The translations under genes were made by a program, and so were the position numbers. Under the pieces are notes generated by a model that searched no databases, was not told where the DNA came from, and worked only from the letters and a program-made list of their open reading frames with translations. A stretch of 39,865 bases of DNA from positions 1 to 39,865 of the forward strand of contig JAQTYZ010000001.1 of assembly GCA_028688055.1 (NCBI GenBank), given 5' to 3'. Below are positions 2,697 through 16,756 of this stretch, one piece after another. This DNA comes from Patescibacteria group bacterium (GTDB lineage: Bacteria; Patescibacteriota; Patescibacteriia; Buchananbacterales; UBA6539). Numbering within the stretch: the stretch's first letter is position 1; every line of letters begins with the position of its first letter.

Positions 2697-3956
2697 ATGA
2701 AATACGACGTTACCAATCTTAAACTTGCCGCTGAGGGTAAAAAACGCATTGAATGGGCCCAACAGGATATGCCGGTTTTGGGTGAAATCAAAAAACGTTT
2801 TACTAAAACTAAGCCACTTCGAGGCCTAAAGGTATCGGCCTGTTTGCACGTGACGTGCGAAACTGCAAATTTGATCAGAACATTGAAGGCCGGTGGTGCC
2901 AATGTCATGTTGGTTGCATCAAATCCGCTTTCGACCCAAGACGATGTTGCCGCTTCGTTGGTTAAAGATTATGGTATCAGCGTGATGGCACGCTGTGGTG
3001 AGAATAAGCAAGTTTATTATAAACATTTAGAAGCGGCCATTAAGCATCACCCCGATATCACGATGGATGACGGTGCCGACTTGTTGTCATTGCTTCACAC
3101 TAAATATAAAAATCAAGCCTCAAAAGTCAAAGGTTCAATGGAGGAAACCACCACCGGGGTAATCCGTCTTAAAGCTTTAGAACGAGATGGAAAATTATTA
3201 GTACCTATTGTCGCTGTTAACGACGCCAAAACTAAAAATCTTTTTGACAATCGTTATGGCACTGGCCAATCAACCTTGGACGGTATTATTCGCGCTACTG
3301 ATATTTTGTTAGCTGGAAAAAATATTGTGGTTGCCGGTTATGGGTGGTGCGGTAAGGGGTTTGCGCTGCGTGCTAAAGGTATGGGTGCTAACGTGATTGT
3401 CACTGAAGTTGATCCGGTTAAAGCGATTGAAGCGGTGATGGATGGTTTTCGGGTGATGCCGATGATCAGAGCAGCGGCCATTGGTGATTTATTTTGTACG
3501 CTGACTGGTGACATTCATGTGCTACGCGCCGAACATTTTAAAAAAATGAAAGACGGGGCGATTGTTTGCAACTCCGGACATTTTGATGTGGAAATTGATA
3601 TTGTGTCATTGAAAAAATTAGCCAAGTCCGTCCGGAAGAATGTGCGTAATTATGTTGATGAATATATTTTGTCGACCAACCGCCGGATTTATTTATTGGG
3701 TGATGGTCGTTTAATTAATTTAGCGGCGGCCGAAGGTCATCCGGCATCAGTGATGGATATGAGTTTTGCGACGCAGTCATTAGCGACCGAATACGTCAGC
3801 AAAAATTACAAAACAATGGAGAGTAAAGTTTATTATGTTCCAACGGAAATTGAAAACTGGATTGCCAAAGCAAAAATGAAGAGTATGGGTGTTGGCATTG
3901 ACACTCTAACCCCTGAGCAAGCGAAATATTTGGACAGTTGGGAAATTGGTACTTAA
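2697..3956 (+). CDS. ahcY: S-adenosylhomocysteinase
   Basis: It hydrolyses S-adenosylhomocysteine to adenosine and homocysteine in the methyl cycle. The 419 residues carry the substrate-binding motifs HVTCETANL, NPLSTQDDVAASL and DDGADLL, the EETTTGV stretch, the NDAKTKNLFDNRYGTGQS segment, and an NAD-binding Rossmann motif GYGWCGKG near residue 214. GHFDVEID follows. The C-terminus stops at LDSWEIGT and lacks the KPxxYRY tail of eukaryotic and many bacterial enzymes, giving the shorter archaeal or Thermotoga-like form. The start is the first ATG after its own promoter. Adenosine made here could feed the PfkB-family kinase just upstream. A terminator follows. Confidence 0.95.
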   Translation: MKYDVTNLKLAAEGKKRIEWAQQDMPVLGEIKKRFTKTKPLRGLKVSACLHVTCETANLIRTLKAGGANVMLVASNPLSTQDDVAASLVKDYGISVMARCGENKQVYYKHLEAAIKHHPDITMDDGADLLSLLHTKYKNQASKVKGSMEETTTGVIRLKALERDGKLLVPIVAVNDAKTKNLFDNRYGTGQSTLDGIIRATDILLAGKNIVVAGYGWCGKGFALRAKGMGANVIVTEVDPVKAIEAVMDGFRVMPMIRAAAIGDLFCTLTGDIHVLRAEHFKKMKDGAIVCNSGHFDVEIDIVSLKKLAKSVRKNVRNYVDEYILSTNRRIYLLGDGRLINLAAAEGHPASVMDMSFATQSLATEYVSKNYKTMESKVYYVPTEIENWIAKAKMKSMGVGIDTLTPEQAKYLDSWEIGT

Positions 3957-9228: not shown

Positions 9229-9257
9229 TTGACGATTGTCGTTTTATGCTGTAAATT
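9229..9257 (+). promoter_or_regulatory. Promoter of the Ile leader and cimA
   Basis: TTGACG (9229-9234), 17-base spacer, TAAATT (9252-9257). The predicted transcription start is only about 5 bases before the leader ATG. Confidence 0.75.
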
Positions 9258-9268
9258 GCCTATATCCT

Positions 9269-9352
9269 ATGAAAAAGACTTTCACCAACAATATCATTAT
9301 TGGCATTATCATTATTAGCCAGCCAAGGGGTGGAAGTTTCTTGAGTAGTTAA
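9269..9352 (+). CDS. Ile-codon leader peptide of the cimA attenuator
   Basis: A 27-codon ORF, too short for usual gene calling. Residues 9-16 read IIIGIIII: seven Ile codons (ATT and ATC) around one Gly. The tail SQPRGGSFLSS follows and then TAA. Its translation would stall when Ile-tRNA is scarce. It has no Shine-Dalgarno site and starts almost at the predicted transcript end, so initiation is probably leaderless. The downstream enzyme, citramalate synthase, commits pyruvate to isoleucine, so control codon and product agree. The tail is shared with the Leu leader at 12109. Confidence 0.88.
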   Translation: MKKTFTNNIIIGIIIISQPRGGSFLSS

Positions 9353-9402
9353 AAAGCTAAGTCAGCCGATTAAAGAAACTCCGCCCTGGCGGAGCTTTTT
9401 TG
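9335..9402 (+). terminator. Attenuator of cimA: terminator with competing antiterminator
   Basis: Terminator: CTCCGC (9379-9384), loop CCTG, GCGGAG (9389-9394), then C and six T. Antiterminator: AGTTTCTT (9335-9342), inside the last codons of the leader, pairs perfectly with AAGAAACT (9373-9380). It can be extended by GG (9332-9333) on CC (9381-9382) past one bulged A. The two helices share 9379-9382, so they exclude each other. A ribosome stalled on the Ile codons leaves 9335-9342 free and favours read-through. Confidence 0.85.
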
Positions 9403-9475
9403 ATTGTCTGATATGGTTTTTCCAAAGGAGGGAAGTGTCAGGCAGTGTCCTTTAACTTTTCAAGGAGTACCAGTG

Positions 9476-11068
9476 ATGGAAATACTCGGAGTTGCTAGAG
9501 AGGTTGTCGTTAAGTGCACCACATTTCGTGATGGGGTGCAGGGCGAAGGAGTCGAAGCGCCGGTGCTTGATGATGCGCTGGCCGCCATTATAGCCATTGA
9601 CCGGCTTGGCGTCAGCTATCATGAACTCGGATTTGCTTTTGGCAATGCCGCGGCGCGTCGTCGAATCCAGGCCGCCTTAGAACTTGACCTGGTCGGTAAG
9701 GTTTGTGCTTTTGGCCGGACTCATCCCAACGACATTAAGGCGATTGTTGACCTTGGTGTGCCAGTTGGCGTTTTGGTGGCGAAAAGTCGTAAGTCTGATA
9801 CCGCTTTGATCCATAGCGATCCGGCGGCCAATCTTGAGTTGGTCAGGCGTTCGGTCGGTACTTTGGTCGACGCTGGCGTTGAGGTTGTCTTGGATGCCGA
9901 ACATTTCTTCCAGGGGTTTTATGAAGTTGATCCGAATTATGCCCTGGACATTCTCCGTGTTGCGGTCTCCGCCGGTGCTCGCTGGGTTGTACTCTGCGAT
10001 ACCAATGGCAAGATGACACCGGCCAAGATTAAGGCAGCTGTGGAAGCAGCTCAAGCGGTAGTGCCGAGCCATCAACTTGGCGTTCACACGCATAATGATC
10101 GCGGTCGCGCGGTTGCTAATGCTGAAGCCGCTTGGCTTGCTGGCGCGACCCTGATTGAGGGTTGTATTGGTGGCTTCGGCGAACGGACTGGCAATGTTGA
10201 CCTCTGTACCGTAATACCGAATTTGGTTTTGGACTTCAACGCCCAAGGTATTTCGGCGGAGCAATTAAGCCTGCTGACGCCGACATATAATCTTGTCTGT
10301 GATGTGCTTAATATGCCACCCCGCAATAATCAGCCGTGGGTTGGGCGATCGGCGTTTTATACCGAAGCTGGCATGCACGCCAGTGGTGCCTTGGTCGAAA
10401 CTGGCAATTACAGCCACGTTGATCCGGCGACTGTTGGGAACTCCTATCGCTTTGGTGTTACTGACCAGTCCGGCCGAGCCAATGTTCTGGCAAAGATTAA
10501 GGAACTCGGACTTGAGGTACCAACTGAAGAAATACCGTCCATTGTTAGGATCTATCAGAGGATTACCGCCGCAGGTGGACACTTCGGTTTAGCCGATGCG
10601 TCATTTCAGCTCTTCTTATTGCGTCAGCTTGGTCGAGTGCCAAACCTTTTTCAAACTGTCGGTTATCGAATTACCGATGAGAAAAACGGCGGCGAGACGA
10701 TCAGTTCACAAGCGATTTTAAGGATGGATGTCGCTGGTGTACAGCAACTTCACGTTGCCGATGGCGATGGTCCGGTTAACGCGATTGATAATGTCCTGCG
10801 TCGCACGCTTATTAAGTTTTATCCGAAGTTGAGAACTGTCCATCTGGAGGATTTCCGGGTTCGGATCCTTGATTCGCAGGAAGGCACCGGCGCGATGGTC
10901 CGAGTTTTGATCACGCTCAGTGACGGCCAGACCACTTGGAGTACGGTGGCAACCGATACCAGCATCACCGAGGCGGCCCGGCGTGCCCTTGAAGACGGCT
11001 ATGTTTACAAGTTGGCAGTCATTGATTGTGTCAGCCTGAAGGAACAGGCCGCCAGCGCGCCAAACTGA
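9476..11068 (+). CDS. cimA: (R)-citramalate synthase
   Basis: It condenses pyruvate and acetyl-CoA to citramalate, the threonine-independent entry to isoleucine. From the chosen ATG the protein has 530 residues: a DRE-TIM barrel starting with TTFRDGVQGEG (residues 15-25), the CimA-type AEHFFQGFY stretch, metal ligands in GVHTHND (H204, H206), GGFGERTGNVDLCTVIPNL, and a C-terminal LeuA-type regulatory domain with VRILDSQEGTGAMVRVLI. The ERTGN and AEHFF motifs and overall length favour CimA over isopropylmalate or homocitrate synthase. The frame is open upstream to TTG 9404, but ATG 9476 has AAGGAG 8 bases before it and gives the family N-terminus. An Ile leader attenuator precedes it. GC is clearly higher than in the flanking genes. 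Confidence 0.9.
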   Translation: MEILGVAREVVVKCTTFRDGVQGEGVEAPVLDDALAAIIAIDRLGVSYHELGFAFGNAAARRRIQAALELDLVGKVCAFGRTHPNDIKAIVDLGVPVGVLVAKSRKSDTALIHSDPAANLELVRRSVGTLVDAGVEVVLDAEHFFQGFYEVDPNYALDILRVAVSAGARWVVLCDTNGKMTPAKIKAAVEAAQAVVPSHQLGVHTHNDRGRAVANAEAAWLAGATLIEGCIGGFGERTGNVDLCTVIPNLVLDFNAQGISAEQLSLLTPTYNLVCDVLNMPPRNNQPWVGRSAFYTEAGMHASGALVETGNYSHVDPATVGNSYRFGVTDQSGRANVLAKIKELGLEVPTEEIPSIVRIYQRITAAGGHFGLADASFQLFLLRQLGRVPNLFQTVGYRITDEKNGGETISSQAILRMDVAGVQQLHVADGDGPVNAIDNVLRRTLIKFYPKLRTVHLEDFRVRILDSQEGTGAMVRVLITLSDGQTTWSTVATDTSITEAARRALEDGYVYKLAVIDCVSLKEQAASAPN

Positions 11069-11226: not shown

Positions 11227-11283
11227 ATGAAATCTATTGCCTTAAACGTCTTGGTCAACGTCGTCGTACTAGTCTCGGACTAG
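11227..11283 (+). CDS. Val-codon leader peptide
   Basis: An 18-codon ORF ending in TAG. Residues 8-16 read VLVNVVVLV: six Val codons (mostly GTC) with two Leu and one Asn. It sits directly behind its promoter without a Shine-Dalgarno site. TTAAACG inside it (11242-11248) can pair with CGTTTAA (11299-11305) beyond the stop, a possible extra pause or anti-antiterminator helix. The genes it would control are two small unknown ORFs. Confidence 0.82.
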   Translation: MKSIALNVLVNVVVLVSD

Positions 11284-11346
11284 GTGATTTCGTTTGGGCG
11301 TTTAAAGTAATAGAAATAACCTAGTCTCGCCAGGACTAGTTTTTTG
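11278..11346 (+). terminator. Attenuator of the Val leader unit
   Basis: Terminator: CTAGTC (11321-11326), 7-base loop, GACTAG (11334-11339), six T, G, TTT. Antiterminator: GACTAGGT (11278-11285), which covers the leader stop codon, pairs perfectly with ACCTAGTC (11319-11326). After one mismatch ATTTC (11287-11291) pairs with GAAAT (11313-11317). The 13-bp antiterminator uses the whole terminator 5' arm. Confidence 0.85.
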
Positions 11347-11382: not shown

Positions 11383-11658
11383 ATGTCAGCCATCAAGCCA
11401 ATTATTAGCTATAAAATGCCGGCGGTCGGGGGAAGGGTTTTTCACTTTCGGACCGAAATTAGGGTAACGACCGACGGTCAACTTCAGGTTGGCGACAAGA
11501 AGGATGCCAAGTGCGTCGAGTTCAGCCGTTCGTACGGTTGTGGCGCGTCGGCCAATTGTTTTGCCGTTAAGAGTGGTGATCGGATCAAGGTTTTTGAGGG
11601 ACCAACCTTCGGTCAGGGAATGATTTCCCGGACTGAAGTTTTAGCCGCTTGTTGCTAA
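11383..11658 (+). CDS. Unknown 91-residue Cys-containing protein behind the Val leader
   Basis: I do not recognise this protein. It starts at ATG 11383 (GGAGG 9 bases upstream); the frame is open further up to TTG 11344, which lies inside the terminator tail and is unlikely. The protein is soluble, predicted beta-rich (FHFRTEIRVTTDGQLQVG), with cysteines in KCVEF, YGCGASANC and a final AACC. The CGASANC pair and terminal CC could bind metal or form disulfides. It is the first gene of a two-gene unit under a Val-codon attenuator, which suggests a role linked to valine supply or use; that is inference only. Codon use is GC-rich like the rest of the island. Confidence 0.7.
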   Translation: MSAIKPIISYKMPAVGGRVFHFRTEIRVTTDGQLQVGDKKDAKCVEFSRSYGCGASANCFAVKSGDRIKVFEGPTFGQGMISRTEVLAACC

Positions 11659-11674: not shown

Positions 11675-11992
11675 ATGGTAGAGTTTGCCGGATGTTGTCT
11701 GGTATCAAACAGTCGCGCGCCGCAGTCGACCGTGTCGGAAAAGGAAAACAATCTGATTTTACTTAGGCGGGTGTTAGCCGATTACACACTTGAGCTGGAG
11801 AGATTGCGGAGCCGACTGGAAAAAGTTTCAGCTGACAGTGATATCCAAACCACGCGCCGACGCACCAGGTTTGAATTGCTGCGTCGCCGTTGTGCGCCGC
11901 GCGTCATTAATCTACTCCAGACTCGGCATCACCAAGACGTGGAAGATGAGTTGAAAGCTAGATTGCTCGCGCTTGGAGTTGATGGCCTTTAA
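11675..11992 (+). CDS. Unknown 105-residue coiled-coil protein behind the Val leader
   Basis: It begins at ATG 11675 behind GGGGGAG and lies 16 bases after the preceding gene, so they form one unit. The N-terminus has a CC pair (FAGCCLV). Residues 20-75 are a strongly charged Leu-heptad helix (LILLRRVLADYTLELERLRSRLEKV), then a very Arg-rich stretch (TTRRRTRFELLRRRC) that could touch nucleic acid, then a second helix. No family is recognised. The paired small Cys protein and coiled-coil protein may form a complex; this is a guess. A terminator follows. Confidence 0.68.
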   Translation: MVEFAGCCLVSNSRAPQSTVSEKENNLILLRRVLADYTLELERLRSRLEKVSADSDIQTTRRRTRFELLRRRCAPRVINLLQTRHHQDVEDELKARLLALGVDGL

Positions 11993-12108: not shown

Positions 12109-12198
12109 ATGAAACTTTTCCATTCACAATTAAACGGTCTATTATTAGGTTTGTTGTTGTTGAGCCAGCCAGTGGGTGGAAGGTTTACTAGTGTCTAG
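12109..12198 (+). CDS. Leu-codon leader peptide of the leuA attenuator
   Basis: A 29-codon ORF with LLLGLLLL at residues 11-18: seven Leu codons (TTG, TTA, CTA) around one Gly, the same architecture as the Ile leader. The tail SQPVGGRFTSV matches the Ile leader tail SQPRGGSFLSS, and the DNA AGCCAGCCA is identical in both. It sits upstream of leuA, so control codon and pathway product agree. It has no Shine-Dalgarno site and starts at the transcript end. Confidence 0.9.
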   Translation: MKLFHSQLNGLLLGLLLLSQPVGGRFTSV

Positions 12199-12257
12199 CT
12201 AATAAGGTAACAGGTAAACATCAGTCAGTCTTCCACCGTCTGGAAGGCTGTTTTGTT
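12175..12257 (+). terminator. Attenuator of the leuA unit
   Basis: Terminator: CAGTCTTCCA (12226-12235), loop CCGTC, TGGAAGGCTG (12241-12250; one T-G pair), then TTTTGTTT. Antiterminator: GGTGGAAG (12175-12182), in the leader codons for VGGR, pairs perfectly with CTTCCACC (12230-12237). The overlap with the terminator 5' arm makes them exclusive. GTTTAC (12184-12189) and GTAAAC (12214-12219) may form a third helix. Confidence 0.85.
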
Positions 12258-12312: not shown

Positions 12313-12474
12313 ATGGGAAAATTATTATTGATACCAGTTTTCTTTGCTGCCCTTATCGTCTGGATTTATTGCGAAATAAGGGAGGCGCCATTGGAATGTA
12401 TCTCGTGTGGTTGGCTCATTGAAGCCGGTAAAACGATTTGTCCAAAATGTGGTCAGAAGCATCTGGAATCTTAG
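12313..12474 (+). CDS. 53-residue membrane-anchored zinc-ribbon protein
   Basis: A short gene between the Leu attenuator and leuA. It starts at ATG 12313 behind GGAGAAG. Residues 3-19 are one hydrophobic segment (LLLIPVFFAALIVWIYC), followed by two CxxC knuckles, CISC and CPKC, separated by 13 residues. That is a single-knuckle-pair zinc ribbon at the cytoplasmic membrane. Its stop is 13 bases before leuA, so they are co-transcribed under the Leu leader. Small anchored zinc ribbons of this kind have no general assigned function; a link to leucine is inferred only from position. Confidence 0.75.
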   Translation: MGKLLLIPVFFAALIVWIYCEIREAPLECISCGWLIEAGKTICPKCGQKHLES

Positions 12475-12487
12475 AAAGGAGCGAGGC

Positions 12488-14023
12488 ATGAGTAAAGTTC
12501 AGATTTTTGACACGACGCTTCGGGATGGAGAGCAATGTCCTGGAGGCAGTATGACGCTCAGTGAAAAGCTGAGAGTAGCAGAAAGGTTGGCGTTGCTGAA
12601 CGTCGACGTGATTGAGGCTGGCTTTCCGGCCTCGAGTGTCGGCGATTTTGAGTCGGTAGCTAAAATCGCCAGGCAAATTCACGGACCAATAATCTGCGGC
12701 TTGGCTCGGACGATCGATGTTGACATTGATCGCTGCTGGGAAGCCGTAAGGCATTCGTCGCGTCCGCGCGTTCACACCTTCATTGCGACTTCCGATCTTC
12801 ACATCACTGAAAAGTTGCGTATGACCCGTGAGAGCGTAGTTGTCGCCGCGGTTCGTGCCGTTGCGCGTGCCAAAGCATATGGCGCGGAAGTCGAGTTCAG
12901 TCTCGAAGACGCTACGCGGACAGATTACGACTATATGTGTCTGGTGATTGAAGCCGTTATCAACGCCGGGGCAACAATCGTCAATATTCCCGACACGGTT
13001 GGGTATGCCGATCCTTGGTCGTACGGCGATCGGATCGCGCACATTTTTGCCAACGTCCCGAATATTGGTGAGACCGTTTTTAGTGCCCACTGCCATAATG
13101 ACCTTGGTCAGGCAGTTGCTAATTCGCTGGCCGCAATCCACTTTGGCGCTCGGCAGGTTGAATGCACAATTAACGGTATCGGCGAGCGAGCGGGCAATAC
13201 GGCGCTTGAGGAATTGGTTATGAGCATTAAAACTCAGCCGTTCTTTTCGGGACGATTTTCAACCGGTATCGAGACCAAACATCTCTACGGAGCCAGTCGC
13301 TTGGTGGTCCAAGTTACCGATCTGCCAGTGCAGTCGCACAAGGCGGTTGTCGGGCGCAATGCCTTCGCGCATGAAGCCGGTATTCATCAGGCTGGTATGA
13401 TTGCCAATCGGCAAACGTACGAAATCATGAATCCGGAAGATGTCGGTTGGCAGGGTGAAGGCTTAGTGCTCGGTAAGCATTCCGGTCGCAGGGCTTTTGC
13501 GGTTCGTCTAGCTGAGCTTGGCATTAAGCTCGACGATCAAGAATTTAAGGCGGCCTTCGATGCCATGAAAGCTCTGGCCGACGAACGCAAGAGCGTTTAT
13601 GCCAGTGACTTGGTGGCGATTGCTCGCGATCATGGTTTTACCGGCATACCGGAAACTTTCCGACTCGAAGCGATGACAGTGGTGAGTTCAACTCACACCA
13701 CCCCGATGGCGACAATTAAAATCGCGGTTAATGGGAAAACCGTTGACTGCGGTACGCTTGGTGTCGGTCCGGTTGACGCGGTTTATAATGCCATCTTCCA
13801 GGCAACTGGTTTGTCGGCTAAGCTTGTTTCATTCGGTTTGCGAGCGACCGCCGAAGGAACAGATTCGCCAGCCGAAGTGCAGGTGAAAATTGGCGAGAAT
13901 GGTCATTCGGTCGTCGGGATTGCCGGCGATGACGATGTCGTTAAGGCGTCGGTCAATGCTCTCTTGGATGCGATGAATCGCCTTGAAGCGATTAAGGAGG
14001 CGGAAGCAGAAACTTCCAAGTAA
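12488..14023 (+). CDS. leuA: 2-Isopropylmalate synthase
   Basis: It catalyses the first committed step of leucine synthesis (2-oxoisovalerate plus acetyl-CoA). From ATG 12488, with AGGAG 8 bases upstream, it has 511 residues, the usual length. Motifs in order are FDTTLRDGEQCPGG (residues 7-20), VIEAGFPASS, the metal ligands SAHCHND (H201, H203), NGIGERAGNTALEE, FAHEAGIHQ and LGKHSGR. A C-terminal allosteric domain begins near residue 390. The protein can therefore also be inhibited by leucine. The frame is open upstream through the zinc-ribbon gene, but that N-terminal extension is not used by the family. leuB, leuC and leuD are not in the window. Confidence 0.95.
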   Translation: MSKVQIFDTTLRDGEQCPGGSMTLSEKLRVAERLALLNVDVIEAGFPASSVGDFESVAKIARQIHGPIICGLARTIDVDIDRCWEAVRHSSRPRVHTFIATSDLHITEKLRMTRESVVVAAVRAVARAKAYGAEVEFSLEDATRTDYDYMCLVIEAVINAGATIVNIPDTVGYADPWSYGDRIAHIFANVPNIGETVFSAHCHNDLGQAVANSLAAIHFGARQVECTINGIGERAGNTALEELVMSIKTQPFFSGRFSTGIETKHLYGASRLVVQVTDLPVQSHKAVVGRNAFAHEAGIHQAGMIANRQTYEIMNPEDVGWQGEGLVLGKHSGRRAFAVRLAELGIKLDDQEFKAAFDAMKALADERKSVYASDLVAIARDHGFTGIPETFRLEAMTVVSSTHTTPMATIKIAVNGKTVDCGTLGVGPVDAVYNAIFQATGLSAKLVSFGLRATAEGTDSPAEVQVKIGENGHSVVGIAGDDDVVKASVNALLDAMNRLEAIKEAEAETSK

Positions 14024-14120: not shown

Positions 14121-14171
14121 ATGAGTAAACAGCGAAATTCAATTTTGCCCTTACCACCAACCTCCGTCTAG
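14121..14171 (+). CDS. Pro/Leu-codon leader peptide
   Basis: A 16-codon ORF ending in TAG. Residues 8-13 are ILPLPP, with three Pro codons (CCC, CCA, CCA) and two Leu codons. The Pro density is the most likely signal, but the control amino acid is less clear than in the other four leaders. It precedes a tRNA-like gene rather than a protein gene. Confidence 0.65.
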   Translation: MSKQRNSILPLPPTSV

Positions 14172-14227
14172 GAAGTTGGGTCGTTTGCTTTCGTTAAATT
14201 AGTAGCCCAGCTTCCGGGCTATTTTTT
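14171..14227 (+). terminator. Attenuator ahead of the tRNA-like gene
   Basis: Terminator: TAGCCC (14203-14208), 7-base loop, GGGCTA (14216-14221), six T, G, TTT. Antiterminator: GGAAGTTGGG (14171-14180), starting on the last base of the leader stop, pairs over 10 bases with CCCAGCTTCC (14206-14215; one T-G pair). It takes the terminator 5' arm and loop. Confidence 0.82.
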
Positions 14228-14240
14228 GTTTGTTTATTTT

Positions 14241-14320
14241 CGGGGCGATAGCTTAAGCTGGTAGAGCGTCCTGACGTCAAGTCGGGAAGGTCGTAGGTTC
14301 AATTCCTACCGCCGCGACCA
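14241..14320 (+). tRNA. Noncanonical tRNA-like gene, identity undetermined
   Basis: 80 bases ending in an encoded CCA. Acceptor CGGGGCG pairs with CGCCGCG with one G-G mismatch at pair 3-70; A is the discriminator. The D arm is GCTT/GAGC with a normal GG-containing loop; the T arm is GTAGG/CCTAC with loop TTCAATT. Odd points: three bases instead of two between acceptor and D stem, and a 6-bp anticodon stem (TCCTGA/TCGGGA) with loop CGTCAAG. In that fold position 33 is G instead of T and the central triplet is TCA. C1-G72 and A73 are proline-tRNA features, shared with tRNA-Pro at 17900. It could be a decayed tRNA, a divergent functional one, or a tRNA mimic. It lies behind an attenuator. Confidence 0.5.
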
Positions 14321-14469: not shown

Positions 14470-14532
14470 ATGAAAGCACATATTTTAAGCAAATCATTTT
14501 TCGGCTTTTACTTTACTAACCCAGTAGGTTAG
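14470..14532 (+). CDS. Phe-codon leader peptide of the DAHP synthase unit
   Basis: A 20-codon ORF. Residues 10-15 read FFGFYF, four Phe codons plus Tyr, then TNPVG and TAG. It is followed by an unknown gene and DAHP synthase, the entry enzyme of aromatic amino acid synthesis, so the control codons match the pathway. Four of the other leaders' traits recur: promoter adjacent, no Shine-Dalgarno site, stop codon inside the antiterminator arm, terminator next. An ATG at 14459 gives only a four-residue ORF that overlaps this start. Confidence 0.88.
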   Translation: MKAHILSKSFFGFYFTNPVG

Positions 14533-14591
14533 TTTGCTTAGGATATTACCCAGATCACAATCAAGCAACTGACCTACGGGGTCAGTTTTTT
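14524..14591 (+). terminator. Attenuator of the Phe leader unit
   Basis: Terminator: AACTGACC (14567-14574), loop TACGG, GGTCAGTT (14580-14587), T-run, G, TTT. Antiterminator: GTAGGTTAGTTTGCTT (14524-14539), spanning the leader stop, pairs with AAGCAACTGACCTAC (14563-14577). That is 15 pairs with one T-G and one bulged T, and it consumes the whole terminator 5' arm. This is the longest antiterminator of the five. Confidence 0.9.
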
Positions 14592-14730: not shown

Positions 14731-15606
14731 ATGAGTGTTGGCAGAAATAGTGTTGATCGTTTTATCCCAGGCGTGGATTTACCGACCGGTCGTGCCCTTG
14801 ATGAATGCCGGCGAGCTGTCCTTGAGATTATGATGGTGTGGCCGGATCAGGAAATCAGTCCTGAAGCAATCTTTGCGCGCGCGTCAGGATTTTTACACAC
14901 TGACGGTCGTGACGGCGAATTGGCTCGGCATACTTTAGAAAGTCTGATCGCTCAGTGTCGGAACTATCCGACGATTACTAGGGGGCAGACTTTCTGGACG
15001 ATCGTGAAGAGCCTCTTCAAACCTTACGAAGCGTTGGTTCTGTACCTTGGCCAGTGTTCCAGTCTGTCATTAAACAGGGAGCGCCGCGCGGTTGTCAGCC
15101 ATCTTCGGGCAGTTGGTTACACGCTGTCCGACATTAAGCAGGCTGACATAGAGGCAAGGTTGGGAATGAACGACGACGATTTTGTCGCTCGGTTGAGACA
15201 ATGTCTTGGGGCAATTCTCGGAATGTTGCCGGATGTCGAAACACAACGCAACGGTCTGGAGGGGTTAGTTGCGGCGTCATACAACTTCGGCGGACGCTTT
15301 GAAGAAGCTAATGGTATCATTGGCGAGTTAATGTCCGTGATCCCAATTCATTTTGGCGTTTTCCGTCAGCCGTTGTTCTGGGACATTCTTCGGGTCTATT
15401 TTACCGACGAAGAAGCGGTGAGTCTTTATCTCATTCGTTTTCCCAATGCCGCCACCCGTAAGCAAATCGCTTGTATTCGTTGCTACCTGGTTGAGACAGT
15501 CGGATTTAATCCTGAACTAGTCGACGATCTTATCAAGGATCGTGACTTTCAGCTTGTTCCAAATCAGGTTTCCCGACCCAACAAAAAATCGCGCCGGACT
15601 TTTTAG
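14731..15606 (+). CDS. Unknown 291-residue helical protein with internal duplication
   Basis: It has an ideal start (AAGGAGG 7 bases before the ATG). The protein is soluble and mostly helical and I do not recognise it. Two similar units can be aligned: FWTIVKSLFKPYEALVLYLG (near residue 90) with FWDILRVYFTDEEAVSLYLI (near residue 213). Both are followed by a basic stretch, then VVSHLRAVGYTLSDIKQADI and IRCYLVETVGFNPELVDDLI. So it probably arose by tandem duplication of a unit of about 120 residues. The C-terminus is basic (RPNKKSRRTF). It shares the Phe attenuator with DAHP synthase (31-base gap), so a role in aromatic synthesis or its control is plausible but unproven. Confidence 0.75.
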   Translation: MSVGRNSVDRFIPGVDLPTGRALDECRRAVLEIMMVWPDQEISPEAIFARASGFLHTDGRDGELARHTLESLIAQCRNYPTITRGQTFWTIVKSLFKPYEALVLYLGQCSSLSLNRERRAVVSHLRAVGYTLSDIKQADIEARLGMNDDDFVARLRQCLGAILGMLPDVETQRNGLEGLVAASYNFGGRFEEANGIIGELMSVIPIHFGVFRQPLFWDILRVYFTDEEAVSLYLIRFPNAATRKQIACIRCYLVETVGFNPELVDDLIKDRDFQLVPNQVSRPNKKSRRTF

Positions 15607-15637: not shown

Positions 15638-16756
15638 ATGATTGTGCATATGAAGTCAGGCGTTACCGCCGACGGTGATAGGGTTAAGGCGGTTGTTGCT
15701 AAGGCCACTCGCTACGGTTTAGTCCCCGAGATTCACGCCGAGCCGGGAACACACTTCACGCCTGTTGAGATTTATCTCAAGGACGGTAAAACCCAAGCAT
15801 CCAGCTTGCCGGAGTATATCTTTGGCAATATGGAAGGCGTTGATCAGGTGGTGCGAGTTTCGCCGGCGAAAGTTAGTGCTGTGATGAACGGCGACCGTGA
15901 GCGTCATCGCATTCCAATTGGTAACTGTTATATCGGCGGTGATGAACCAACATTGTTGGTCGCGGGTCCGTGTATGATTGATCGTTATTCACGGAGAACC
16001 CTTGAGGTTCTGGCCGCGGCTGGGATTAAGCACGTTCGCGGTGGTTTCTTAAAGCCGCGTTCGCGGGCGGAGGCTTGTCGTGGTTTCGGCCATCAGGCTT
16101 TATCCGATTTCATGCTCGTTGCCAGACAAAGTGGTATTGAATCAGTCTGGACCGAAGTGATTGAAGGTGCGGATATTAATGACGTACGTCGTGCCCGCGA
16201 TGCCGCTAAATTTGACGGCACGGTTGTTTTGTGGGTTGGTGCCAGAAATTGCGGCAATTTTCGGTTGCTCGAAGAGCTTGGCATTCAAAAAGAGTTTCCG
16301 GTTATGCTTAAGCACGGACTCCATATGACTCGTGTCGAAGAACTTTTTGATACCGCCGCGTTTGTCTTGTATGGACCGATGAAGTGGAATGATGACGGTT
16401 CGCTTGATAAGCGGCCGAGTGCTAAAGCCGGAAATAGTAAGTTGATTTTCTGCGTTCGTGGGTTGCAGAAAGTCGATCCTTATGATCCGCATCGTTTTCG
16501 GCCAAACTTTGGCTGGATCGACGAGCTTCGCGACCGATCGTGGGCGCCGGTCTGTCTTGACCCCAGTCATATGGCTGGTCGGTGGGATCTTGTCTTTCGG
16601 GATTTAACCGAAGGGTTGACTCATAACCCGGATGTTGTGTTGGTCGAATCGCATATTGATCCCTGTCAATCGCTGTGTGATCAAGAACAGGCAATCCCCG
16701 CTGAACGCATCGACGAGATTATCGACCGGGTTGATGAGCATAACGCTCAGCACTAG
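15638..16756 (+). CDS. aroF: 3-Deoxy-7-phosphoheptulonate (DAHP) synthase, class I beta-like
   Basis: It joins phosphoenolpyruvate and erythrose 4-phosphate, the first step to Phe, Tyr and Trp. From ATG 15638 behind GGAGAGGAG it has 372 residues: an N-terminal ferredoxin-like regulatory domain (about 1-75), a linker, then the barrel. Metal ligands are recognisable: C112 in VAGPC, H311 in LDPSH, E337 in VESH and D348 in LCDQEQ. The substrate motifs RGGFLKPRS, WTEV and VGARN are present. The barrel carries divergent segments (LYGPMKWNDDGSLDKRPSAK) not usual in the family, so related KDO8P-type synthases were considered; the regulatory domain and Phe attenuator favour DAHP synthase. A terminator follows. 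Confidence 0.85.
   Translation: MIVHMKSGVTADGDRVKAVVAKATRYGLVPEIHAEPGTHFTPVEIYLKDGKTQASSLPEYIFGNMEGVDQVVRVSPAKVSAVMNGDRERHRIPIGNCYIGGDEPTLLVAGPCMIDRYSRRTLEVLAAAGIKHVRGGFLKPRSRAEACRGFGHQALSDFMLVARQSGIESVWTEVIEGADINDVRRARDAAKFDGTVVLWVGARNCGNFRLLEELGIQKEFPVMLKHGLHMTRVEELFDTAAFVLYGPMKWNDDGSLDKRPSAKAGNSKLIFCVRGLQKVDPYDPHRFRPNFGWIDELRDRSWAPVCLDPSHMAGRWDLVFRDLTEGLTHNPDVVLVESHIDPCQSLCDQEQAIPAERIDEIIDRVDEHNAQH

Follow-up and report, generated by a model that had tools for sequence, protein, structure and literature searches.

Why would a small genome place an enzyme that opens the isoleucine pathway behind a run of isoleucine codons when that pathway is largely missing? The question is raised by a citramalate synthase (cimA) locus in a 39,865-nucleotide stretch of DNA, referred to here as the window. 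Its source genome (G000) is a draft of 1.10 Mb in 22 contigs, 97.7% complete with a listed contamination of 4.15%, in which the ribosomal protein genes run L5, S8, L6, L18, S5, L15 and secY, with L30, whose loss we take to be a mark of the CPR, missing from the gap between S5 and L15. The small genome and this gene order indicate that the host lineage is probably CPR/Patescibacteria, a phylum in which reduced genomes are described as usual (PMC12239599), and the cell is probably an amino-acid-dependent CPR symbiont. Our answer, which we regard as probable, is that positions 9229-9401 form a classical isoleucine-responsive attenuator of an orphan committed step of the CimA clade, perhaps raising the isoleucine supply through a partner cell.

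An isoleucine leader and a putative attenuator precede cimA

The features at the head of the locus, read from the sequence unless stated otherwise, are:

9229..9257, + strand, promoter-like site TTGACG-17-TAAATT (9/12 consensus matches, weak alone)
9269..9352, + strand, isoleucine leader peptide MKKTFTNNIIIGIIIISQPRGGSFLSS, a 27-codon ORF (translation)
9327..9342, + strand, region 2, the 5' half of the antiterminator helix, lying in the final part of the leader ORF, GGGGTGGAAGTTTCTT (sequence, helix shuffle test)
9370..9386, + strand, region 3, the 3' half of the antiterminator helix, sharing bases with the 5' arm of the terminator, TTAAAGAAACTCCGCCC (sequence, helix shuffle test)
9379..9401, + strand, predicted intrinsic terminator, a hairpin at 9379-9394 followed by a T run
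9476..11068, + strand, citramalate-synthase-clade gene with HMGL-like, HCS_D2 and LeuA_dimer domains (Pfam, NCBIfam, motifs, two trees)

The -10 element of the promoter-like site stops 11 nt 5' of the leader ATG, making the leader ORF near-leaderless. Isoleucine occupies seven of the eight codons of the run IIIGIIII, the feature from which an earlier note on this DNA, made from the letters alone, had proposed an isoleucine-codon leader before cimA, and the proposal is borne out by the translation of 9269-9352, by the terminator and by shuffling. Among 60 dinucleotide-shuffled whole windows, searched on both strands, none contained a small ORF with at least 7/8 codons for one amino acid together with a terminator, and lowering the bar to at least 6/8 yielded a single case (1/60); the real window holds two 7/8 leaders with a terminator, the isoleucine leader of cimA and the leucine leader of leuA. 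A chance origin of the isoleucine codon run is ruled out by the 0/60 count. Region 2 is able to pair with region 3, the latter being the 5' side of the terminator as well, and the putative leader, antiterminator and terminator at 9269-9401 are the three elements that make up a classical attenuator.

The fold of 9269-9410 has a z-score of -3.5 relative to shuffles, 1/200 of which were equally stable, and the region 2:3 antiterminator was matched by 0/300 shuffles. With the ribosome placed at the first or the middle isoleucine codon the predicted fold is without the terminator, and with the ribosome at the last isoleucine codon or at the stop codon the terminator stays in the minimum free energy (MFE) fold. 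Searches of Rfam returned no match at 9229-9475, ruling out a known T-box or riboswitch in place of the attenuator, and only two tRNA matches in the whole window.

Sequence comparison demonstrates the predicted leader, its competing helices, their conservation and the placement of the gene with CimA, and these features suggest the following mechanism. When charged tRNA-Ile is scarce, a ribosome translating the leader ORF, which would begin near the 5' end of the transcript and without a Shine-Dalgarno sequence, would stall within the isoleucine run and leave region 2 (9327-9342) exposed; region 2 would then pair with region 3 (9370-9386), the terminator would be blocked and cimA transcribed. 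When isoleucine is plentiful, a ribosome at the stop codon would mask region 2 and transcription would stop at 9401. We infer that stalling on uncharged tRNA-Ile would relieve termination, so that cimA would be made when isoleucine is short.

The gene behind the leader belongs to the citramalate synthase clade

The gene at 9476-11068 starts with ATG behind an AAGGAG Shine-Dalgarno sequence, whereas the longest frame opens further upstream with a TTG (9404). Among NCBIfam models the protein scores best with TIGR00977 (citramalate synthase), at 399.1 bits versus 181 for the runner-up. In both trees, the first with 48 rows and the second with 27 of those 48, the protein joins annotated CimA and stands apart from LeuA, including that of E. 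coli, with support of 100/99 and 100/100; fragments or cut genes (G133, G054, G005) were excluded, and neither tree holds a homocitrate synthase reference (NifV, LysS). The motifs RDG, HTHND and GERTGN are intact and correspond to RDG, HxHND and GERxGN, which we take to be the catalytic motifs of a CimA-type enzyme. Compared with the CimA described by TIGR00977, the window enzyme is alike in full-length match, tree position and catalytic motifs, and differs in scoring 399 bits against a curated cut-off of 450, which is passed by proteins of two relatives (G041, 726 bits; G303, 730 bits), and in lying on a long branch common to G154 and G002, the latter a genome of the same family. We predict that it is a divergent CimA. 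A LeuA identity is ruled out by the two trees and the HMM rank, and a homocitrate synthase identity by HMM rank alone.

The match to CimA proposed earlier from motifs is thus upheld by both trees and by the best NCBIfam model, though below its cut-off, and the LeuA-type regulatory domain is recovered as Pfam LeuA_dimer. A tree of CimA, LeuA and homocitrate synthases had been suggested as the check: the protein falls with CimA and not with isopropylmalate synthase, the homocitrate side being judged by HMM scores only.

Further leaders lie in the same window

Downstream of cimA, three more units follow:

11227..11283, + strand, valine leader MKSIALNVLVNVVVLVSD (leader scan; terminator 11321-11339; conserved in G002)
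11383..11658, + strand, unk1, a small protein with no family match behind the valine leader (Pfam, genome search, structure model)
11675..11992, + strand, unk2, the second small protein of the valine unit, no family match (Pfam)
12109..12198, + strand, leucine leader MKLFHSQLNGLLLGLLLLSQPVGGRFTSV (terminator 12226-12250; shuffle tests)
12313..12474, + strand, small protein between the leucine attenuator and leuA, with a membrane segment and CxxC pairs seen by eye (sequence)
12488..14023, + strand, 2-isopropylmalate synthase LeuA (passes NF002086 and TIGR00973; tree)
14470..14532, + strand, phenylalanine leader MKAHILSKSFFGFYFTNPVG (terminator 14567-14587)
14731..15606, + strand, 291-aa protein without assigned family, the first gene 3' of the phenylalanine attenuator (NCBIfam and Pfam searches)
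15638..16756, + strand, DAHP synthase family protein (NCBIfam and Pfam searches)

This order (isoleucine leader and cimA, valine leader and unknown genes, leucine leader and leuA, then a phenylalanine leader) is shared with G002, where the valine unit occupies 2247-3055 of L144 with the leader MKSIARKTVVVNVVVLVRGD. A small ORF similar to that at 12313-12474 lies at the equivalent position (L144, about 3717-3860), and in the phenylalanine unit of G002 (L144, 6160-8722) the leader precedes a protein with weak likeness to prephenate dehydratase and a fusion of prephenate dehydrogenase with prephenate dehydratase. Chorismate synthase had no match in G002.

The unk1 protein is 42% identical between the window and G002 and is present in only 2/380 genomes, so it is not a general part of the leader system. 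Its structure model (pLDDT 88) is all-beta with a C-terminal helix and found no match at E<=0.001 in searches of the PDB and BFVD; the best VIA-align Z of 4.6, with roadblock/profilin-like folds among others, is too weak for use. The idea that unk1 is a known regulatory subunit was dropped, the model being confident and without a match in either collection.

Leaders recur upstream of related genes across the class

A search of 380 genomes of the class with a three-row CimA alignment matched 29 genomes at E<=1e-20, eight of which encode a clear CimA (E<1e-150). Leaders were called by a fixed rule (within 450 nt upstream, an ORF no longer than 40 codons in which one amino acid takes at least 5/8 codons, and a terminator) in a scan without the gene starts of G133, G054, G005 and the second G031 gene. 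Under this rule, 7/8 CimA genes have a leader, always for isoleucine, the exception being that of G071; the earlier note had suggested looking before orthologous cimA genes and had named a lack of leaders there as contrary evidence, and the leaders are present. Isoleucine leaders also precede 3/3 genes of a divergent CimA-like group, one of them (G091) counted by eye where the rule had picked a leucine frame (an out-of-frame TTG ORF overlapping the isoleucine leader), and 3/3 genes of a second divergent group. Leucine leaders precede 11/15 LeuA and related HMGL genes, which have no leaders of another kind, and 4/5 stand-alone LeuA_dimer genes have a leader (two isoleucine, two leucine); with the leucine leader of G007 and none found for G241, the total is 29/36 HMGL and LeuA_dimer genes scanned. 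At other genes of the same loci the rule fired in 6/115 cases, four of them themselves target-type genes, leaving 2/111.

A single common origin of the eight CimA proteins was rejected (p-AU 0.003, on the second tree, for a group defined once a first tree had been seen, and with long branches present), and since they do not form one clade, orphan cimA seems to have been acquired more than once.

The divergent CimA-like proteins with isoleucine leaders (L151, L152 and L153, from G091, G142 and G178) carry RE for RD, HFHDD for HxHND and GERxGM for GERxGN, and RE and GERSGM changes occur too in the G007 protein and the second G235 protein, which have leucine leaders; judged by these residues, the active site may be either altered or lost. 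In a third HMGL group (L156, L155 and L015, from G010, G111 and G044) VYLEDW replaces the DAEHFF motif, and the isoleucine leaders (3/3) predict that these proteins contribute to the supply of isoleucine, perhaps by making citramalate.

In a scan of the 500 nt immediately upstream that is blind to cimA within operons, an isoleucine leader with a terminator was found at 2/80 cimA loci of named records, versus 0/207 control segments. This count rejects the idea that cimA genes in general have an isoleucine leader. The two cases, both in Deltaproteobacteria MAGs (L046 upstream of 4317, MKRDTATIIIAGIIIRPEHRSGLMMG; L068 upstream of 6001, MIRNIVSIIRPIIIIIIQDTSG), extend the pairing of isoleucine leader and cimA beyond the class.

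Antiterminator helices are conserved and leaders probably start near the 5' end of the transcript

For each of 26 correctly placed leaders, no more than 9/300 shuffles of region 2 gave a region 2:3 helix as good as the real one; for the valine leader of G002 0/300 shuffles were as good, and the helix of the G052 leader is weak (30/300). Across 13 isoleucine leaders, pairing with the own partner averaged -19.9 kcal/mol versus -12.6 kcal/mol with the partners of other species, indicating that the helix is conserved while its letters change. In energy folding, a ribosome at the stop codon left 0.69-1.00 of the terminator pairs of correctly placed leaders in place. The terminator was fully lost at all three run codons tested in G303, G235 and G010 and at two of three in the isoleucine leader of the window, G041 and others, and was still predicted by MFE at every run codon in G002, G151, G178 and the phenylalanine leader of the window. 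Because MFE is blind to the order of transcription, we treat the folding as support and not as proof.

A promoter with at least 9/12 matches ends 3-13 nt 5' of the leader ATG in 21/33 leaders, versus 14/652 ATGs of the window, its own leaders included, and a Shine-Dalgarno sequence of at least four bases is found before 5/33 leaders versus 17/20 structural genes. The promoter placement and the missing Shine-Dalgarno motifs suggest that the transcript probably begins a few bases from the leader start codon.

CimA and LeuA stand without the next isomerase

The HMGL proteins of the source genome are two, the CimA and LeuA of the window. Six-frame HMM searches of the genome returned no match for PF00330 (LeuC/aconitase), PF00920 (IlvD) or PF02776 (IlvB-type, TPP_enzyme_N), whereas 14/14 control genomes were positive in each; the pathway searches covered the LeuC, IlvD, IlvB-type and LeuB families. 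With no LeuC/aconitase family, CimA and LeuA are left without the next isomerase, and with IlvD and IlvB-type enzymes absent as well there is no in-cell route to isoleucine by known enzymes. The genome does encode one Iso_dh protein, with leuB as best model (213 bits, cut-off 353) and with no leader seen, so that some of the pathway remains. Chorismate synthase had no match in this genome either, which has a phenylalanine leader and a DAHP synthase, and is present in 4/30 genomes with such enzymes.

The gap is widespread among the relatives. PF00330 had any match in seven of the 29 genomes with such enzymes, above the cut-off in six, and none in 22 (G013 was not in the survey); a leader-controlled gene occurs in 20/29, and 17 of these 20 are without PF00330. 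A single gene family may be missed in a draft genome, but among those of the 20 that are at least 90% complete the family is absent in 13/16, making draft gaps alone an unlikely cause. Within the limits of the six-frame HMM search, CimA catalyses a committed step that is orphaned in this genome and in the majority of CimA-bearing relatives. Leaders are not tied to the orphan state, as G235, G044 and G052 have both leaders and LeuC.

Regulatory domains without a catalytic part are also behind leaders

In five genomes (G302, G081, G013, G041 and G110) LeuA_dimer is encoded in a frame that leaves no room for the catalytic part. The G302 gene encodes a 139-aa protein behind the isoleucine leader MNFQRIRIISIIIGIIINGSPLHPLKT; that of G081, which also has its own leuA, encodes a 185-aa protein that matches CimA in its C-terminal part, again behind an isoleucine leader; that of G013 follows a leucine leader; and in G041 the domain is the second gene of an operon, after a ProB-like kinase, with a leucine-rich leader. 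The G110 gene has no leader under the fixed rule. Neither G302 nor G013 has a CimA or LeuA catalytic domain at E<=1e-20. The free LeuA_dimer products cannot alone form either citramalate or isopropylmalate; their genes are nonetheless linked to a shortage signal, and we found no explanation for them through an in-cell pathway.

What an orphan step could provide

That the first enzymes of the isoleucine and leucine pathways were kept, each with the matching shortage sensor, suggests that they may serve to obtain amino acids from a partner. Since the route cannot be finished by known enzymes, any benefit would, speculatively, have to come via another cell, either by release of a product or by free domains acting on the partner's enzymes. 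Under isoleucine shortage, the orphan CimA would raise the cell's isoleucine supply via the partner, in the simplest form by releasing citramalate to a partner equipped with the enzymes of the later steps.

More tentatively, and with doubt prevailing, starvation-triggered and partner-directed supply may be a general strategy, in which CPR keep only the feedback-controlled entry or branch-point enzymes of a route (CimA, LeuA, DAHP synthase, prephenate dehydrogenase/dehydratase and ProB-like kinase), or the free allosteric domains of CimA and LeuA, behind near-leaderless leaders that sense the amino acid of that route, and whose products or proteins would bypass the partner's feedback and turn it into an overproducer.

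A related proposal, which we hold to be unlikely, is that the proteins themselves act inside the partner, where committed-step enzymes and free allosteric domains would evade or upset its feedback. The four leader-controlled stand-alone LeuA_dimer genes speak for it, especially those of G302 and G013, where no target of the free domain is known within the cell, as does the ProB-like kinase of G041, the product of ProB-type kinases being too unstable to share. However, a catalytic domain too divergent for the E<=1e-20 search could serve within the cell, a leuA gene is present in G081 itself, and the window CimA is full length with all its motifs. Plant pathogens secrete chorismate mutase effectors, and in this boldest reading the likeness would be that of a single metabolic enzyme aimed at a partner's pathway; those effectors are secreted, which would be conjecture for the enzymes described here.

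It is distinctly improbable, in our judgement, that the later steps are run within the cell by unrelated enzyme families and that CimA is no orphan at all. Reduced genomes of this kind do hold many genes without known function, and the LeuB-like gene remains, but LeuC-bearing relatives rely on ordinary leuC, leuD-like and leuB genes (G071, G044, G052; G071 has LeuC and LeuB together with a gene judged by eye to be LeuD-like), and the same gap recurs in the shikimate route. We give still less credence to an ordinary, self-sufficient pathway from pyruvate to isoleucine that is controlled twice, by attenuation and by feedback, as the earlier note had envisaged: CimA with its LeuA_dimer domain and a LeuB-like gene are in place, and PF00330 and PF00180 both occur in the CimA-bearing G235 and G071, yet the families missing from the source genome and the 22/29 genomes of the class without PF00330 contradict it, and the pyruvate route claimed there is not supported. 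That leaders and genes are relics of a lost pathway is highly improbable, for although genome reduction is usual in the phylum (PMC12239599, as above), frames and motifs are intact, helices are kept across diverged genomes while letters change, and several CimA lineages exist.

Relation to known attenuators

Attenuation of the leu and ilv operons of E. coli with the leader peptides leuL and ilvL is textbook knowledge, and the leaders of the window resemble these in the run of control codons, the terminator and antiterminator, and the position of region 2 at the end of the leader ORF; they differ in being near-leaderless and without a Shine-Dalgarno sequence, in the target, cimA, and in that the pathway is largely missing from the genome. 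In Actinobacteria, leader peptides with runs of Ile/Val/Leu or Leu codons precede ilvB and leuA, so that codon runs stand upstream of branched-chain genes in both cases; there, leuA has a pseudoknot LEU element, and cimA and citramalate are absent from the available part of the text (PMC1262725). Our literature search, confined to papers outside subscription, found no report of amino-acid leaders in Patescibacteria or candidate phyla or before cimA. The attenuator type itself is known; what appears to be new is its application to orphan committed steps and free allosteric domains, together with the near-leaderless leaders.

The identity of a leader names the amino acid to which an orphan gene responds and so allows a functional reading of enzymes without a pathway. 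The retention of isolated biosynthetic steps in reduced CPR genomes thereby becomes a testable question, through what exits the cell under isoleucine, leucine or phenylalanine shortage and through the binding targets of the free CimA and LeuA domains.

Two minor features of the leaders may be added. Many leader peptides end in QPxGG(R/S) (L017 764-850; window 9269-9352 and 12109-12198; L120 1311-1388), and as the DNA that encodes this ending (GGGTGGAAG or near) is region 2, the likeness of the peptides probably stems from RNA pairing. A weaker proline candidate in the window (14121-14171, leader MSKQRNSILPLPPTSV, three proline codons; unit 14121-14320) has a 9-bp antiterminator, equalled by 14/300 shuffles, and lies directly 5' of a low-scoring tRNA-like gene that ARAGORN calls tRNA-SeC with anticodon TCA and that scores 29.8 in Rfam against a threshold of 29.
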